Shown: piece by piece, positions 1,617-14,542 of the stretch
Position numbering within the stretch: position 1 is the stretch's first letter
Layout of the letters: every line of letters starts with the position of its first letter
Notes under the pieces: generated by a model
Told to the model about the DNA's origin: nothing
What the model saw: only the letters and a program-made list of their open reading frames with translations
Database searches by the model: none
Assembly (NCBI GenBank): GCA_030524315.1
Contig: JAUNGU010000014.1
Span: forward strand, 1 to 36,974
Origin: Peptococcaceae bacterium
Lineage (GTDB): Bacteria > Bacillota > Peptococcia > Peptococcales > Peptococcaceae
DNA: 36,974 nucleotides
Direction: 5' to 3'
Translations under genes and position numbers: made by a program

Positions 1617-3737
1617 ATGAAAAAAACAGCGTGGAAAAGTTTCGCGGTGTACCTCGTCATTTTTCTGCTATTTTTTTCCATGATAGAATTTTTCGGCCGT
1701 AACGGCACCACAGAGCAGCAAGAGCAGGTCTATGGTCAAAATTACACCGAGTTCATGGAAAATGTGGAAAAGGGCAACATCAAAGAGGTCACCATCACGA
1801 CTTATGACAACTATCAGGAAATCAGCGGCCAAACCAACAAAGGCCAGGCCTTTTCGATGCCAATTTCCAAGAGCGACGACAATTTGACCCAGAAGCTCGT
1901 CGACCAGGGCGTCGAGGTGACCCAGGAGAAAACCCCTGAGCCATCAGCGCTGATGACCCTTTTGGGCAATCTCCTGCCAATCCTGCTCTTGGTGGGCTTG
2001 TTCTTCTTCTTTATGAGCCAGACCCAGGGCGGCGGCGGAAAAATTTCCCAATTTGGCAAGAGCAAGGCGCGCATGACCGTCGACAACGACAAGCGCATCA
2101 CCTTCAACGATGTGGCCGGGGCCGATGAGGTCAAGGAGGAGCTGGCGGAGGTCGTCGACTTCCTCAAGAAGCCACAGAAATTCAAGGCCATCGGCGCCAA
2201 GATTCCAAAGGGCGTGCTGCTCTTTGGCCCTCCGGGGACAGGTAAAACCCTGGTGGCGCGCGCCGTTGCCGGTGAGGCCGGGGTGCCATTTTTCTCGATC
2301 AGCGGCTCGGACTTTGTTGAAATGTTCGTCGGCGTCGGCGCCAGTCGCGTCCGCGACCTCTTCGAGCAGGCCAAGAAAAACAGCCCTTGCATCATCTTCA
2401 TCGACGAAATCGACGCCGTCGGTCGTCAGCGTGGCGCTGGCGTGGGCGGCGGCCACGACGAGCGTGAGCAAACCCTCAACCAGCTCCTCGTGGAAATGGA
2501 CGGCTTTGACGCCAACGAGGGCATCATTATCCTCGCCGCCACCAACCGTCCCGATATTCTCGACCCAGCGCTGCTGCGTCCGGGCCGCTTTGACCGTCAG
2601 GTCACCGTTGGCCGTCCAGATGTGCGCGGGCGAGAGGAAATCCTCAAGGTGCACGTGCGCAACAAGCCCCTCTCTGCCGAGGTGGATCTGGCCGTCATTG
2701 CCAAGCAGACCGCTGGCTTTACCGGCGCGGATCTGGCCAACCTCGTCAACGAGGCGGCGCTCCTGGCGGCGCGTGAGGGCCTGACCCGCATCACCCAGGA
2801 GCATTTGGAGCAATCCATCGAGCGCGTCGTCGCCGGTCCGGAAAAGAAAAACCGTGCCAAAATGAGCGAGGCGGAGCTCAACCTCGTCAGCTACCACGAA
2901 GCAGGCCACGCCGTCATTGGCCACTTCCTGCCGGGCTGTGATCCGATCCACAAGGTCTCGATCATTCCGCGTGGCAGCGCCGGTGGCTACACCATGAGCC
3001 TGCCGGAAGAGGATCGCAACTACATGACCCGCACCCACCTCTTGCATCAGGTGACGATGATGCTCGGCGGTCGCGTCGCCGAAGAAATCGTCCTCGGCGA
3101 AATTTCCACAGGGGCGTCCAACGACATTGAGCGCGCCACCAACACCATCCGCCAGATGATCACCCGTTGGGGCATGAGCGACGAGCTCGGCACGATCACC
3201 TTTGGTGAGGACCAGGAGCAGGTCTTCCTGGGCCGCGACCTGGGCCACAACCGCAACTATTCGGAGGCCATCGCCTTCTCCATCGATAAGGAAGTCAAGC
3301 GCATCATGGACGAGTGCCACAGCCGCGCCCACCAGCTCCTCAGAGAGCACCGTGACAAGCTCGAAGCCGTGGCCAACGCCCTCAAGGAACGCGAGGTCAT
3401 CAACGCCTTCGAATTCAAGGGCATCATGGATGGCAAGGACCTGGAAACCATCGACAAGGAAGAAAAGGAATACCTGGCCAAGCTCAACGAAGAAAAGCAG
3501 CGCAAAATTGCTGAAGAAGCCGCCAAGGAAAAACGCGACGGCACCTTGAGAACGCCAGAGGCGCCAGTGAATCATCCAATGCCACCACAAAACGAAGAAC
3601 CTGCCAAGTTCAACCAATGGGTGCGCAACGACACCGCGGCACGGACCAATCCGCCTGCCGAAGAAAAGAAAGCCCCTAGCGAGGACGCGCCAGAGAAAAA
3701 TCTCGGCCTGCCTTCCCAGGAGGATGAGGACAAATAA
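1617..3737 (+). CDS. ftsH: ATP-dependent zinc metalloprotease FtsH
   Basis: This 706-residue membrane-anchored AAA+ protease degrades misfolded and regulatory membrane or cytosolic proteins as a hexamer. Membrane segments lie at about residues 8-26 and 112-133, flanking a short extracytoplasmic domain. The AAA domain shows Walker A GPPGTGKT at 204-211, Walker B ending FIDEID near 261-266, and the second region of homology with RPGRFDR near 321-327. The zinc protease motif HEAGH is at 427-431 and the likely third zinc ligand is Asp503. The last 60-70 residues form a charged, Lys/Glu/Pro-rich tail longer than in Escherichia coli FtsH, probably disordered. The AGGAGG at 1607-1612 fixes the start. 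An intrinsic terminator follows. Confidence 0.97.
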
Positions 3738-3742
3738 TCACA

Positions 3743-3783
3743 GACCCTGTCTCAGCCATGTGCTGGGGCAGGGTCGTTTTTTT
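3743..3783 (+). terminator. Intrinsic terminator of ftsH
   Basis: GACCCTG (3743-3749) pairs with CAGGGTC (3769-3775). The stem extends inward through G-U pairs to about 14 bp around a CATGT loop, then G and a run of T residues follows. Confidence 0.9.
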
Positions 3784-3813
3784 GCGCAAATTCCTGACGA
3801 TTGTGAATTTAGC

Positions 3814-3864
3814 GTGACAATGGCCGTTTCCCGTCTTTATAAACAGCCATGAATATTATATAAT
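3814..3864 (+). promoter_or_regulatory. Putative nfnAB promoter region
   Basis: Two -10 candidates are visible. TTATAA (3837-3842) lies 17 bases after GTGACA (3814-3819), and a perfect TATAAT lies at 3859-3864 with a weak -35. The second overlaps the in-frame ATG at 3863, so that ATG would lie upstream of the transcript start. The leader that follows can form GCTCTC/GAGAGC (3880-3885 with 3891-3896) ahead of a T6 run at 3902-3907. This may be a weak attenuator or just a leader hairpin. Confidence 0.45.
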
Positions 3865-3925
3865 GACTAATAAGCGATCGCTCTCGATGGGAGAGCAAGG
3901 ATTTTTTGAGGAAGAAGGGGTTAGT

Positions 3926-4783
3926 GTGTATAAAATCGTAGACTATAAGCACCTTGGCGGTGCGACCCACGAATTGGTCGTTGAAGCACCACGCCTGGCA
4001 AAAAAAGCCAAGGCCGGACAGTTTTTGATTGTGCGTATGGGCGAAGGCGAGGAGCGGATTCCTCTGACCATTGCCGACCACGATGCCGACAAGGGCACTG
4101 TGACCATCGTCATCCAGGCGCTCGGCCATTCCACCCAGAAGCTTGTGACGCTGCGCCCTGGCGATGAAATTGCCGACGTTGTCGGTCCGCTCGGTAAGGC
4201 CAGCGAAATTGAAAAATACGGCACCGTCGTCATCGTCGGCGGCGGCGTCGGGATTGCGCCAATTTATCCGATTGCCCGCGATCTCAAGAAGGCTGGCAAC
4301 CGCGTCATCGCCATCATCGGCGCCAAGACCAAGGACCTGCTCTTTTGGCAGGACAAGCTCGCCGCTGCTGTCGATGAGGTGCGTGTCGCCACCGACGACG
4401 GCTCCGTCGGCCACAAGGGCTTTGTCACCGATTTGCTCGCCGATGCCTGCGACAACGAAGGCGTCGACATTGTTTGGGCGATTGGGCCGATGATCATGAT
4501 GTACAACTGTGTCAAGGTCACCAAGGCCCGCGGCATTCGCTCGGTGGTCAGCATGAATCCGGTGATGATCGACGGCACGGGCATGTGCGGCGGCTGCCGC
4601 GTGCGCGTGGGCGACGAGACGAAATTTGCCTGCGTCGACGGGCCGGAATTTGACGGCGACCTCATCGATTTTGACCTGGCCATGAAGCGCTCGCGTTTCA
4701 TGCGCGATCTCGAGGCAGAGGCCGTCGAGCGCGACCACGAATGCACCATCGGTCTCAATCACAAGGAAGGGGAGAGCAAATAA
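3926..4783 (+). CDS. nfnA: NADH-dependent ferredoxin:NADP+ oxidoreductase, subunit A
   Basis: This 285-residue small subunit of electron-bifurcating transhydrogenase NfnAB couples NADH and reduced ferredoxin to NADP+ reduction, or the reverse, in the cytoplasm of anaerobes. It has the ferredoxin-NADP reductase fold. The FAD-binding RIPLT is near residues 44-48 and the nucleotide motif GGGVGIAP is near 105-112. The C-terminal [2Fe-2S] site has Cys221, Cys224 and Cys236. I chose GTG 3926 because the protein then begins MYKIVD as family members do and a purine-rich GGAAGAAGGGG (3910-3920) sits five bases upstream. The in-frame ATG at 3863 overlaps a TATAAT box and is unlikely to be used. The stop overlaps nfnB by one base. 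Confidence 0.93.
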   Translation: MYKIVDYKHLGGATHELVVEAPRLAKKAKAGQFLIVRMGEGEERIPLTIADHDADKGTVTIVIQALGHSTQKLVTLRPGDEIADVVGPLGKASEIEKYGTVVIVGGGVGIAPIYPIARDLKKAGNRVIAIIGAKTKDLLFWQDKLAAAVDEVRVATDDGSVGHKGFVTDLLADACDNEGVDIVWAIGPMIMMYNCVKVTKARGIRSVVSMNPVMIDGTGMCGGCRVRVGDETKFACVDGPEFDGDLIDFDLAMKRSRFMRDLEAEAVERDHECTIGLNHKEGESK

Positions 4784-11093: not shown

Positions 11094-11756
11094 CTAATGA
11101 TGGAGAATGAAATGATTGCGCGAATAATCCAGGAGGCCGTCGTCGCGCATCTTCGAGAGCTCCACCGACAGCGCGCTGCGATCCACCGAGAGAAAATCCG
11201 CCAGCTCCTGGCGGTTGAAAGGGATGGTGAAATCGTTGGCGCCGTGGCGCTTGGATTCGTCGGAGAGGTAGGAAATGAGCTTGGCGCGGATGGTGCGCTG
11301 GGAGAGATGGCCGAGCTTTTTGACGAGGGCGCGGTTTTTTGCAGAGATGATAAAAAAGAGATGCTGCACGACGAGGCTGTGAAAACGGCAGGCGTTGGAG
11401 CAGACAGTGAGAATTTTGCGCGCCTCAAAAAAAATCAGGGTGCTCTCGACGGCGCAGACCACATCGCTGACAATCGGCGTGCTGTCCGGCGCGACGTAGG
11501 CTTCGCCGATCATGTCGCCGACGCCGATGACGTTCAAAATCGTGTGGTTGCCCCAGTAATCGTCGCTTTGGATGTGGACCTTGCCCTCGAGGACGATGGC
11601 GATCTGGTGGATTTGCTCGCCCTGGTGAAAAATCGTCGCGCCCTTGTCGTAGTGGACGACGGACGCCTGTAGACAGTCGAGCATGGCGAGGAGGTCCGAC
11701 GCATCCACGTCGGCAAAGAGGGGCGTGGCTTGGAGAATCGGCAGATATTTTTCCAT
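11094..11756 (-). CDS. Crp/Fnr-family transcriptional regulator
   Basis: The 220-residue protein has an N-terminal cyclic-nucleotide-binding-type beta-roll (about residues 10-125), a dimerisation helix, and a C-terminal winged helix-turn-helix. The FNRQELADFLSVDRSALSVELSKM segment (in two halves) is the classical recognition element. No N-terminal Cys cluster like that of E. coli FNR is present, so it is not an obvious oxygen-sensing FNR. Divergent placement beside a ferredoxin and hcp resembles the HcpR/nitrosative-stress regulators known in anaerobes, so control of hcp in response to NO is a reasonable inference. The start at 11754-11756 has AAGGAG seven bases upstream. A palindrome sits in its leader. 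Confidence 0.9.
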   Translation of the reverse strand: MEKYLPILQATPLFADVDASDLLAMLDCLQASVVHYDKGATIFHQGEQIHQIAIVLEGKVHIQSDDYWGNHTILNVIGVGDMIGEAYVAPDSTPIVSDVVCAVESTLIFFEARKILTVCSNACRFHSLVVQHLFFIISAKNRALVKKLGHLSQRTIRAKLISYLSDESKRHGANDFTIPFNRQELADFLSVDRSALSVELSKMRDDGLLDYSRNHFILHH

Positions 11757-11768
11757 GGGGACTCCTTT

Positions 11769-11784
11769 CGTTGGAAATACAACG
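11769..11784. promoter_or_regulatory. Palindromic operator, candidate Crp/Fnr site
   Basis: CGTTG-GAAATA-CAACG is a perfect inverted repeat with a six-base spacer. Its centre (11776.5) is 41.5 bases upstream of the start predicted from TATACT (11806-11811) for the ferredoxin-hcp transcript, the class II activator position. It also falls just downstream of the predicted start of the regulator's own transcript, suiting autorepression. Confidence 0.65.
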
Positions 11785-11798
11785 GAAAATCTCTGTTC

Positions 11799-11827
11799 AT
11801 CGTAGTATACTGGGTTCAGAAAGTCAA
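11799..11827 (-). promoter_or_regulatory. Putative promoter of the Crp/Fnr gene
   Basis: On the minus strand TTGACT (11822-11827) and TACGAT (11799-11804) are spaced by 17 bases. The transcript would begin near 11792, so the palindrome at 11769-11784 lies in its early transcribed region. Confidence 0.5.
11806..11811 (+). promoter_or_regulatory. -10 element for ferredoxin-hcp
   Basis: TATACT is preceded at the -35 position (11783-11788) by CGGAAA, a poor match. An activator bound at the palindrome centred at 11776.5 would compensate. This box overlaps the divergent promoter. Confidence 0.5.
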
Positions 11828-11856
11828 ATACTGCGACAGAAAGAGAGTAGAGAATC

Positions 11857-12567
11857 ATGATTAGACGCATTATCAAAATCGACGAGGAAAAATGCAACGG
11901 CTGCGGTGCCTGCGCCAAGGCCTGCCACGAAGGCGCCATCGATATGATCGACGGCAAGGCGCGTCTGACACGCGAGCATTATTGCGACGGCCTCGGTGAT
12001 TGCCTGCCAAATTGCCCAACCGGCGCCATCACCTTTGAGGAACGCGAAGCGCCAGCCTACGACGAGGCAGCGGTCAAGGCCGCGCAAGCCAAGAAAGCCC
12101 AGGCCAGCGCCTGTGCCTGCCCAGGCAGCGCGCCAAAAACCTTCGCCCCAAAGGCACCGGCGCCTGCAGCTGCCCCAAGCGCGCAGCAAGCATCCACAAG
12201 CCAGCTGCGTCAGTGGCCGGTGCAAATCAAGCTCGCACCGGTGAGCGCGCCCTTCTATGAAGGCGCAAAGCTCTTGGTGGCGGCGGATTGCTCGGCCTAC
12301 GCCTACGCCAATTTCCACGCCGATTTCATCCGTGGGCGCGTGACCCTCATCGGTTGCCCAAAGCTCGATGCCGTGGATTACAGCGACAAGCTCACAGAGA
12401 TTATTGCCTCTAACGACATCAAGAGCGTCACCGTTGTGCGCATGGAAGTGCCATGCTGCGGTGGCATCGAAAATGCAGTGAAAAAGGCTTTGCAGCAAAG
12501 TGGTAAATTTATCCCTTGGCAGGTAGTGACGATCGCTACCGATGGCCGTATTTTGGACGAGGCCTGA
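11857..12567 (+). CDS. Hcp-associated [4Fe-4S] ferredoxin with C-terminal domain
   Basis: The 236-residue product starts with a ferredoxin domain. The first cluster uses Cys13, 16, 19 and 23. The second motif has only Cys43, 49 and 53, with Leu at the position of the usual second Cys. An Ala/Pro-rich linker (about 65-115), containing C86 and C88, leads to a C-terminal domain with Cys145, Cys167 and a CCGG motif at 200-203. Such two-part ferredoxins commonly precede hcp in clostridia and are the presumed electron donor to Hcp. The ATG at 11857 has only a weak GAGAGTAGAG site upstream. It is separated from hcp by 30 bases and almost certainly cotranscribed. What the C-terminal domain does is not known to me. 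Confidence 0.87.
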   Translation: MIRRIIKIDEEKCNGCGACAKACHEGAIDMIDGKARLTREHYCDGLGDCLPNCPTGAITFEEREAPAYDEAAVKAAQAKKAQASACACPGSAPKTFAPKAPAPAAAPSAQQASTSQLRQWPVQIKLAPVSAPFYEGAKLLVAADCSAYAYANFHADFIRGRVTLIGCPKLDAVDYSDKLTEIIASNDIKSVTVVRMEVPCCGGIENAVKKALQQSGKFIPWQVVTIATDGRILDEA

Positions 12568-12597: not shown

Positions 12598-14172
12598 ATG
12601 AACAAAATGTTTTGCTTCCAATGTGAACAGACCGCCGGTGGCACTGGCTGCTGCGGTGGCGCCGGTGTCTGCGGCAAAAAGGCTGACACCGCCAATTTGC
12701 AGGATGCCCTGTCCGGCGCGCTGGTCGGCTTGGCCCGCGCCGCTGAAAAAGCGCCGACACGCGTGAACGCCGAGACCCACAAGCTCGTGCTCGAAGGCCT
12801 GTTTACAACCATTACCAATGTCAACTTTAACGACGAAACCATCACTGCCCTGAAAAATCGCATCGCCGCTGAAAAGCAGCGCCTGGCCGACGGCGCCGAT
12901 GTGGCCGACTACGACCTGGCAGCCCTCTGGCAGGCGAACGAAGACATTCGCTCGCTAAAATCCCTGATCCTCTTTGGCATCAAGGGCATGGCTGCCTATG
13001 CCTATCACGCCGCCGTCCTGGGCTACCACGACGCCAGCATCAACGATTTCATGCTCAAGGCGCTCGTTGCCATCGGCGATGACAGCCTCGGCCTTGACGA
13101 GCTACTGCCAATCGTTCTCGAGGTTGGCGAGGTCAACCTCACCTGCATGGCGCTGCTGGATCAGGCCAACACCGAAACCTTCGGCAATCCAGAACCAACG
13201 GAAGTGTCCCTGAATGTCGAAAAGGGGCCGTTCATCGTCGTCACCGGCCACGATCTCTACGACCTCAAGCTGCTCTTGGAGCAGACCGCCGGTAAGGGCA
13301 TCAATATTTACACCCACGGCGAAATGCTCCCAGCCCACGCTTATCCGGAGCTCAAGAAATACCCACATCTCAAGGGCAATTTTGGCACCGCTTGGCAGAA
13401 TCAGCAGAAGGAATTCGACGGCATTCCGGCGCCAATTCTCTACACCACCAACTGCCTCATGCCTGTGCGCCCAAGCTATCACGACCGCGTCTTCACGACG
13501 GAAGTCGTTTCCTATCCGGAAATGGTTCACATCGGCGAGGACAAGGATTTCACGCCAGTCATCGAAAAGGCGCTGGCCTTGGGCGGCTATAGCGAAGATC
13601 AGCATTTCACCGGCATCAACGGCGGTGACAAGGTTCTCACTGGCTTTGGCCATCACACGGTGCTTTCTGTGGCGGATCAGGTTGTGGACGCTGTCAAATC
13701 CGGTGCGATCAAGCATTTCTTCCTCGTCGCCGGTTGCGATGGGTCCAAGCCGGGCCGCAATTACTACACCGAGTTTGTCGAAAAGACGCCAGCCGACAGC
13801 GTCGTGCTGACCCTGGCCTGCGGCAAATACCGCTTCAACGATTTGGACCTGGGGACCATCGGCGGCCTGCCACGTCTCATGGACATGGGTCAGTGCAACG
13901 ATGCCTACAGCGCCATCAAGGTGGCGGTCGCCCTGGCCGAAGCCTTTGACTGTGGCGTCAACGATCTGCCACTGTCGATGGTGCTCTCCTGGTACGAGCA
14001 GAAGGCCGTCTGCATTCTGCTGACGCTCCTGCACCTGGGCATCAAAAATATTTTGCTCGGGCCATCCCTGCCAGCCTTCGTTTCGCCAAATGTGCTCAAC
14101 GTCCTCGTGGAAAATTACGCCATTGCGCCAATTTCTACGCCAGAGGCCGACATGGCAAAATGCCTCGGCTAA
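12598..14172 (+). CDS. hcp: Hydroxylamine reductase / hybrid cluster protein
   Basis: The 524-residue Hcp reduces hydroxylamine in vitro and has high-affinity NO reductase activity in other bacteria, acting in nitrosative-stress defence. The N-terminal cubane cluster cysteines are Cys6, Cys9, Cys18 and Cys25. By spacing against characterised Hcp proteins, hybrid-cluster ligands are His218, Glu242, Cys286, Cys380, Cys408, Cys433, Glu467 and Lys469, so the active site is intact. The region between is short, as in the class of Hcp found in anaerobes. AAGGAGAGAGGAG precedes the ATG. The gene is the second of the ferredoxin-hcp operon and ends at a hairpin terminator. Confidence 0.96.
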   Translation: MNKMFCFQCEQTAGGTGCCGGAGVCGKKADTANLQDALSGALVGLARAAEKAPTRVNAETHKLVLEGLFTTITNVNFNDETITALKNRIAAEKQRLADGADVADYDLAALWQANEDIRSLKSLILFGIKGMAAYAYHAAVLGYHDASINDFMLKALVAIGDDSLGLDELLPIVLEVGEVNLTCMALLDQANTETFGNPEPTEVSLNVEKGPFIVVTGHDLYDLKLLLEQTAGKGINIYTHGEMLPAHAYPELKKYPHLKGNFGTAWQNQQKEFDGIPAPILYTTNCLMPVRPSYHDRVFTTEVVSYPEMVHIGEDKDFTPVIEKALALGGYSEDQHFTGINGGDKVLTGFGHHTVLSVADQVVDAVKSGAIKHFFLVAGCDGSKPGRNYYTEFVEKTPADSVVLTLACGKYRFNDLDLGTIGGLPRLMDMGQCNDAYSAIKVAVALAEAFDCGVNDLPLSMVLSWYEQKAVCILLTLLHLGIKNILLGPSLPAFVSPNVLNVLVENYAIAPISTPEADMAKCLG

Positions 14173-14251: not shown

Positions 14252-14277
14252 AAAGGCAAATCATAAGAAACCGTTGA

Positions 14278-14542
14278 AGCGGAGATAACGGCGATGATGC
14301 CTTTACAGAGAGCCTGTGTTGCTGAGAGTCAGGTGAGAAACAAGTCGTCAAATGGACCGCTGAGGGTGCAGTCAAATGGGCCAGGCCCAGAGTATTCTGC
14401 AACGTGAGGCATACGTCAGTTGTCGAGAGTATGATGGTACTCTGCTAAGGGCGCAGCTTTTTTGGCTGCGAAATCAAGGTGGCACCGCGGATAGACTATT
14501 ATTCGTCCTTGACAGAACTTTTCTGTCGAGGGCGTTTTTTTT
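14278..14542 (+). ncRNA. Tryptophan-specific T-box riboswitch leader
   Basis: The leader has the hallmark T-box sequence TGGCACCGCG at 14480-14489. Stem I is closed by AGCGG (14278-14282) with CCGCT (14357-14361) and continued by GATGAT (14293-14298) with GTCGTC (14344-14349). In the specifier loop the triplet TGG at 14353-14355, followed by ACC, reads as a Trp codon. An AGAGAG motif at 14307-14312 and hairpins at about 14425-14442 and 14452-14470 fit the remaining stems. The terminator is CGTCCTTGACAG (14504-14515) with CTGTCGAGGGCG (14523-14534) and T8. Uncharged tRNA-Trp should stabilise the antiterminator and switch on trpEGDCFBA. Confidence 0.95.
14504..14542 (+). terminator. Regulated terminator of the T-box
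   Basis: A 12-bp stem with two G-U pairs is followed by T8. It competes with the antiterminator built around 14480-14489. Confidence 0.9.

Follow-up and report, generated by a model that had tools for sequence, protein, structure and literature searches.

A conserved dyad between divergent genes as the probable operator of an HcpR-like regulator of frdX-hcp

What is the role of a perfect palindrome that separates the gene for a Crp/Fnr-family regulator from a divergently transcribed ferredoxin-hcp gene pair? The question is raised by a contig of 36,974 nucleotides from a Peptococcaceae bacterium (assembly GCA_030524315.1, contig JAUNGU010000014.1), which was analysed as a whole and is referred to here as the window. 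For this locus, it had been predicted that a single site could activate ferredoxin-hcp and repress the regulator.

The locus and its two promoters

The features of the locus are as follows:

11094 to 11756, minus strand: regulator gene, Crp/Fnr family, HcpR-like, 220 aa (start codon 11756-11754; PF00027 and PF13545)
11762 to 11768, minus strand: ribosome-binding site of the regulator, AAAGGAG, adjoining the dyad (the C/T-rich plus-strand block is conserved)
11769 to 11784, no strand: putative operator dyad, CGTTG GAAATA CAACG, centre 11776.5 (conserved core 11770-11783, GTTG-GAAATA-CAAC)
11783 to 11788, plus strand: poor -35 position of ferredoxin-hcp, CGGAAA, overlapping the conserved core by one base (11783)
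about 11792, minus strand: predicted transcription start of the regulator, derived from its -10 box
11799 to 11804, minus strand: -10 box of the regulator promoter, TACGAT, with a 17-base spacer to its -35 and a single base between it and the ferredoxin -10
11806 to 11811, plus strand: -10 box of ferredoxin-hcp, TATACT, 29 bases past the dyad centre
11818, plus strand: predicted transcription start of ferredoxin-hcp, an A after C, counted from TATACT
11822 to 11827, minus strand: -35 box of the regulator promoter, TTGACT, from a promoter scan (a conserved block at the same offset in relatives)
11857 to 12567, plus strand: frdX-like protein with a 4Fe-4S dicluster ferredoxin domain, 236 aa (PF12837, PF12838)
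12598 to 14172, plus strand: hcp, hybrid cluster protein, 524 aa (NF003658, PF03063)

The regulator matches PF00027 with 56.1 bits and PF13545 with 37.5 bits, both above the cut-off. With a cyclic-nucleotide-binding-like domain and a Crp-type helix-turn-helix, it belongs to the Crp/Fnr superfamily, and its predicted structure matches CRP-family folds in Foldseek. The name of the frdX-like gene is derived from domain matches. The hcp product matches NF003658 with 770.7 bits (cut-off 367), and no other prismane match occurs in the genome. Downstream of hcp, a T-box leader (14265-14513; Rfam RF00230, 97.4 bits) lies 5' of an anthranilate synthase-like gene, which was named by eye.

The sequence confirmed the dyad and also the claim that it is the sole strong one in the divergent region, as no other perfect 5+5 dyad with a spacer of 0 to 10 occurs within 11757-11856. 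By itself, the dyad does not exceed chance expectation. CGTTG-N6-CAACG with at most 1 mismatch has 1 match in the window compared to 1.63 expected from shuffled windows, and the motif has 7 occurrences in the genome (2.1 Mb) compared to 4 for the reversed control. Moreover, a perfect 5+5 dyad is found in 8.2% of first-order Markov 100-mers if the spacer is 6, and in 56% if any spacer from 0 to 10 is allowed. The significance of the dyad derives from its conservation in relatives and not from its own improbability.

The -10 box, the start at 11818, the dyad centre at -41.5 and the poor -35 all agree with the original prediction. A site centred at -41.5 is in the class II activator position, which is established for CRP and FNR, and a dyad centre at about -41.5, a weak -35 and a good -10 constitute the class II layout. 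On the opposite strand, both boxes of the regulator promoter occur at the window's offsets in 74 of 96 loci, with the next best offset reaching 5; the window's own -10 (TACGAT) is weak. Counted from the predicted regulator start, the dyad covers about +9 to +24 and its core about +10 to +23, so that the proposed position just inside the regulator's own transcript is supported by the conservation of this promoter. A single base separates the two -10 boxes, and the two promoters lie within each other's footprints, so that they should be mutually exclusive; a literature search on overlapping promoters returned no papers.

It should also be noted that a block of about GACTTGTT, located to the right of the centre at offsets 8-15 (11785-11792 in the window), is conserved in relatives. 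The window departs from its consensus, and the block coincides with the start of the regulator transcript.

Conservation of the dyad and of its register

Related loci were picked by homology to the regulator, independently of the site. They came from two sets of genomes related to that of the window (60 and 21), from 80 named loci, mostly clostridial, and from 79 regions found by sampling 398 genomes of the phylum, of which 85 had a hit. As RSA was among the scan patterns for the 80 named loci, S181 proteins are favoured among them. A plasmid collection was left out, its relatives all being under 60% identity. The pooled set comprises 192 rows, including the window's own; for the count of half-sites and register, 31 of these are without a dyad by the criterion used and 1 is too short.

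Within 420 bases, the regulator faces frdX (ferredoxin) or hcp in 134 of the 192 rows, and a matching dyad is present in 132 of these 134. Among the 58 rows in which the regulator lacks such a neighbor or the contig ends, 28 have the dyad. Failure of conservation before hcp in relatives had been named in advance as grounds for abandoning the original prediction; the dyad proved to be conserved. Adjacency to hcp and/or frdX, in the window as at the 134 loci, and the conserved palindrome before these genes both support the designation of the regulator as HcpR-like, as does the lack of an FNR-type N-terminal cysteine cluster, the N-terminal 34 residues holding C28 only.

The exact GTTG-N6-CAAC core occurs in 86 of the 97 distinct S181 loci of the first sets and with one mismatch in 2 more, while 9 with at least 2 core mismatches were dropped. 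The profile of 84 loci with S181 and a residue other than arginine at position 185 (S181/non-R185) reads yGTTGTaaawACAAC, with an effective number of 32.6, many of the loci being related by descent. The family motif is best written as GTTGT-N4-ACAAC. The motif of the original prediction was therefore one pair too wide: its GTTG-N6-CAAC core is conserved, but the bases at its outer C/G position form a Watson-Crick pair in just 19 of 96 relatives, fewer than the 30 predicted by the column composition. In the window, the left arm (GTTGG) deviates from the GTTGT consensus, and affinity may therefore be lower.

The same columns bear on the alternative that the dyad forms a hairpin within the leader RNA of the regulator gene and functions either in translation control or as RNA bound by the regulator. 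The dyad does lie within the predicted leader, beside AAAGGAG, and in a Bacteroides thetaiotaomicron promoter complex, a reported RNA hairpin aligns with the HcpR site (PMC13370916; this and the other papers cited here are represented by the accessible parts of their text). However, compensatory changes were not found: four pairs of the arms hardly vary, the pair just outside them shows the shortfall given above, and the innermost pairs are mostly unpaired across relatives. Furthermore, the leader fold is not significantly more stable than those of shuffles (z -0.88), the best fold is without the dyad hairpin, and the constant distance to the frdX -10 would be left unexplained. We therefore rejected this reading, which we regard as very improbable, on covariation and folding.

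The distance between dyad and promoter is kept as well. With the base immediately to the right of the centre taken as offset 0 (11777 here) and the -10 scored as TATAAT-like at 5 of 6 positions, a -10 is found at offset 29 in 85 of 96 S181/non-R185 loci, 37 of 47 P181 loci and 7 of 10 S181/R185 loci, whereas in 300 shuffles the highest count at any offset was 10, 7 and 3, respectively. Of the 96 S181/non-R185 loci, 94 agree with the -10 in 4 or more of 6 positions at offset 29, and in 88 of these 94 a pyrimidine at -1 is followed by a purine at +1, which supports the predicted start at 11818. The relatives' -35 position reads C(A/C)GA(C/T)T in the profile, i.e., it retains the G and A of TTGACA. 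The proposed -41.5 placement with a poor -35 thus gains comparative support from a register kept in three subclasses.

This fixed register in many genera, together with the conservation of the dyad, makes it extremely unlikely that the palindrome arose by chance or that it is merely a weak hairpin of the terminator type. While the dyad alone is not improbable and a terminator scan flags 11766-11787, a plus-strand terminator at this position would stand upstream of the plus-strand start. The comparison indicates that the dyad is a real, conserved control site that many gut and rumen bacteria have retained at an equivalent position.

Half-site letters and the recognition helix

In the structure model of the regulator (mean pLDDT 92.4), helix 193-205 is the recognition helix, and R193, S194 and V198 correspond to CRP positions 180, 181 and 185 by profile alignment. 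Sorting the loci by residues 181 and 185 separates the half-sites. The 48 P181/R185 loci have GTAAC in 58 of 96 half-sites, GTAGC in 28, GTATC in 7 and others in 3. The 10 S181/R185 loci have GTTGC in 19 of 20 half-sites and GTTGT in 1, base -3 being C in 19 of 20, and among the 194 half-sites of the 97 S181/non-R185 loci, base -3 is T in 163, G in 19 and C in 12. Moreover, an A181/V185 relative (L198) has the half-site GTTTG, and the K185 paralogues L127 and L168 have GTGG. By this comparison, the half-site tracks residues 181 and 185, with GTA(A/G)C for P181/R185, GTTGC for S181/R185, and GTTGT or GTTGG for S181/non-R185. As these residues belong to the adjacent regulator, the site would be tied to that protein, which gives comparative support to the original proposal that the neighboring Crp/Fnr regulator binds the dyad.

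Binding of the dyad by another transcription factor is, in contrast, a poor explanation for the observation that the dyad follows the divergent regulator gene and that its letters follow the recognition helix of the product. Binding by the adjacent regulator is itself a prediction, and the genome does encode a second homologue (C120:194-826). However, no GTTG-N6-CAAC site was found in C120:1-3000, and we consider it highly unlikely that a factor other than the adjacent regulator is responsible.

Position 185 was examined on a tree of 105 thinned rows out of 155, with the recognition helix masked. In this tree, the P181 relatives carry the published HcpR2 motif, and R185 changes only twice; both independent pairs (2/2) go in the expected direction (sign test p 0.5). 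We offer the link between residue 185 and base -3 as a hypothesis only, because it rests on about two evolutionary changes. The exceptions to the rule are L071 (K185, with GTTGC in both arms) and L145 (R185, with one GTTGT arm). L187 (R185, GTTGC) is placed inside the non-R group and would represent a return, but its branch is long. In addition, L010, L107 and L114, which have VERSAMSAEL in the recognition helix, carry GTTGG in both arms, a possible further specificity step.

An arginine at recognition-helix position 185 is normally kept in CRP and FNR. We consider it about as probable as its opposite that a large gut and rumen clostridial clade lost R185 of its HcpR-type regulator together with the half-site -3 C/G pair, shifting GTTGC-N4-GCAAC to GTTGT or GTTGG. 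This would constitute a private code within a compact two-way switch, in which one dimer chooses between divergent promoters with adjoining -10 boxes. The natural series of P181/R185, S181/R185 and S181/non-R185 proteins suggests that the DNA specificity of a Crp/Fnr protein was shifted in two steps. A correlation of the motif with residues 180 and 181, with other motifs for S181 proteins, was described by Rodionov 2005 (PMC1274295). We did not find the 185/base -3 link in the accessible parts of that paper or of the other HcpR papers cited here, nor anything on the HcpR-like family among the listed matches on the CRP/FNR recognition code. A literature search for the motif strings, with RegPrecise, figures and supplements outside its scope, found no paper; the S181 motif may already be drawn in a figure of Rodionov 2005.

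A genome-wide search for GTTGT-N4-ACAAC with 1 mismatch revealed 30 sites compared to 80 for the reversed control, i.e., no enrichment. When a -10 at the right distance was also required, 4 sites were obtained compared to 0 in the control, and that of the window is among the 4. One site (C87:3661) lies inside a long hairpin between convergent genes and was rejected as terminator-like. Imperfect sites with a -10 precede a DASS-type anion transporter gene in the window's own genome (C114:8916, L267) and a phosphodiesterase-like gene (C57:15814, L268); both are weak candidate targets. In a further locus (L271, genome G001; 1425 and 3677-4300), an in-frame TAA interrupts the regulator gene, which is separated from hcp by about 2.2 kb, and a GTTGT-N4-ACAAC site with a -10 at the right distance is still present before hcp.

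Proposed mechanism and known systems

We propose that the dyad is, with high probability, the operator of the adjacent HcpR-like regulator, serving class II activation of frdX-hcp and repression, or a roadblock, of the regulator's own gene. A regulator dimer would bind GTTGG-AAAT-ACAAC at -41.5, beside the -35 position of frdX-hcp, and would act there as a class II activator, a role suggested by the good -10 and the lack of a proper -35. Judging from position alone, the same dimer, at about +9 to +24 of the regulator transcript, could repress or roadblock its own gene. RNA polymerase would occupy one divergent promoter at a time, and the regulator would tip the choice.

The direction of this control could also be the reverse, with the regulator binding the dyad and repressing frdX-hcp until nitric oxide (NO) relieves repression. 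Such a repressor could work where the dyad abuts the -35 position, and it would resemble the model for Desulfovibrio desulfuricans HcpR2, in which hcp is repressed until NO damages an Fe-S cluster (PMC5701242). Moreover, C28, C119, C123 and H126, kept in 91, 92, 91 and 90 of 92 S181/non-R185 proteins and nearly invariant in P181 relatives too, could carry an NO-labile metal site. However, a frdX promoter without a -35 is expected of an activated gene, and in three subclasses the site is centred at precisely -41.5, which for CRP and FNR is the established position of a class II activator. Furthermore, an hcpR insertion lowers hcp and frdX expression in Clostridioides difficile (PMC12915319), and deletion of hcpR abolishes hcp transcription in B. 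thetaiotaomicron (PMC13370916), which makes activation the known direction. We therefore regard repression of frdX-hcp as unlikely and retain activation by the adjacent regulator.

The signal is probably NO, or nitrosative stress, as suggested by the regulon content and by one NO-reductase-type neighborhood, and what the regulator turns on would probably be a protection against NO. The core of the HcpR regulon, as published, consists of frdX-hcp (PMC1274295; PMC545781). In a genome of the same family (G003, locus L270; 1174-2735 and 3313-5973), the gene for a K185-type relative stands opposite a cupin ORF, behind which lies a flavorubredoxin-like NO reductase gene, a match of 596.8 bits that is under the cut-off of 635, and a second GTTGT-type site precedes the gene for a DUF1858-DUF438-hemerythrin-PAS protein. 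That C28, C119, C123 and H126 form a metal or Fe-S sensor site is a guess. For a little-studied nitrosative-stress switch of many anaerobic gut bacteria, the analysis supplies a well-supported putative operator, the promoter layout and a likely target.

Class II promoters of CRP and FNR share with this locus the dyad centre at -41.5, the weak -35 and the good -10, but the window's half-site is neither TGTGA nor TTGAT, and its single site is common to the adjoining divergent regulator promoter. The structural match to HcpR of Porphyromonas gingivalis (9DAY; PMC12750200), likewise a regulator of hcp, reveals the same Crp/Fnr fold (Foldseek E 2.7e-14, TM 0.64) at 18% identity to the window's regulator. 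The proposed heme ligands of that protein, Met68 and His149, have no conserved counterparts in a profile alignment inspected by eye; window-type regulators conserve C28, C119, C123 and H126 instead. C. difficile HcpR, whose gene lies beside a frdX-hcp pair with one predicted shared site, is needed for frdX and hcp expression (PMC12915319). The HcpR2 branch (Rodionov 2005, PMC1274295) also has a Crp/Fnr regulator beside frdX-hcp, an FNR-like operator before ferredoxin/hcp, and R180, which is kept here. Its published consensus is GTAAC-N4-GTTAC with P181, whereas the window's regulator has S181 (S194 in its own numbering) and V185, with GTTGG-N4-ACAAC in the window and GTTGG/GTTGT half-sites, and falls outside this subgroup; the S181 proteins of C. 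difficile and Clostridium thermocellum are likewise described there with motifs other than that of HcpR2. The HcpR-frdX-hcp system is of a known kind, and its variant part is the half-site.
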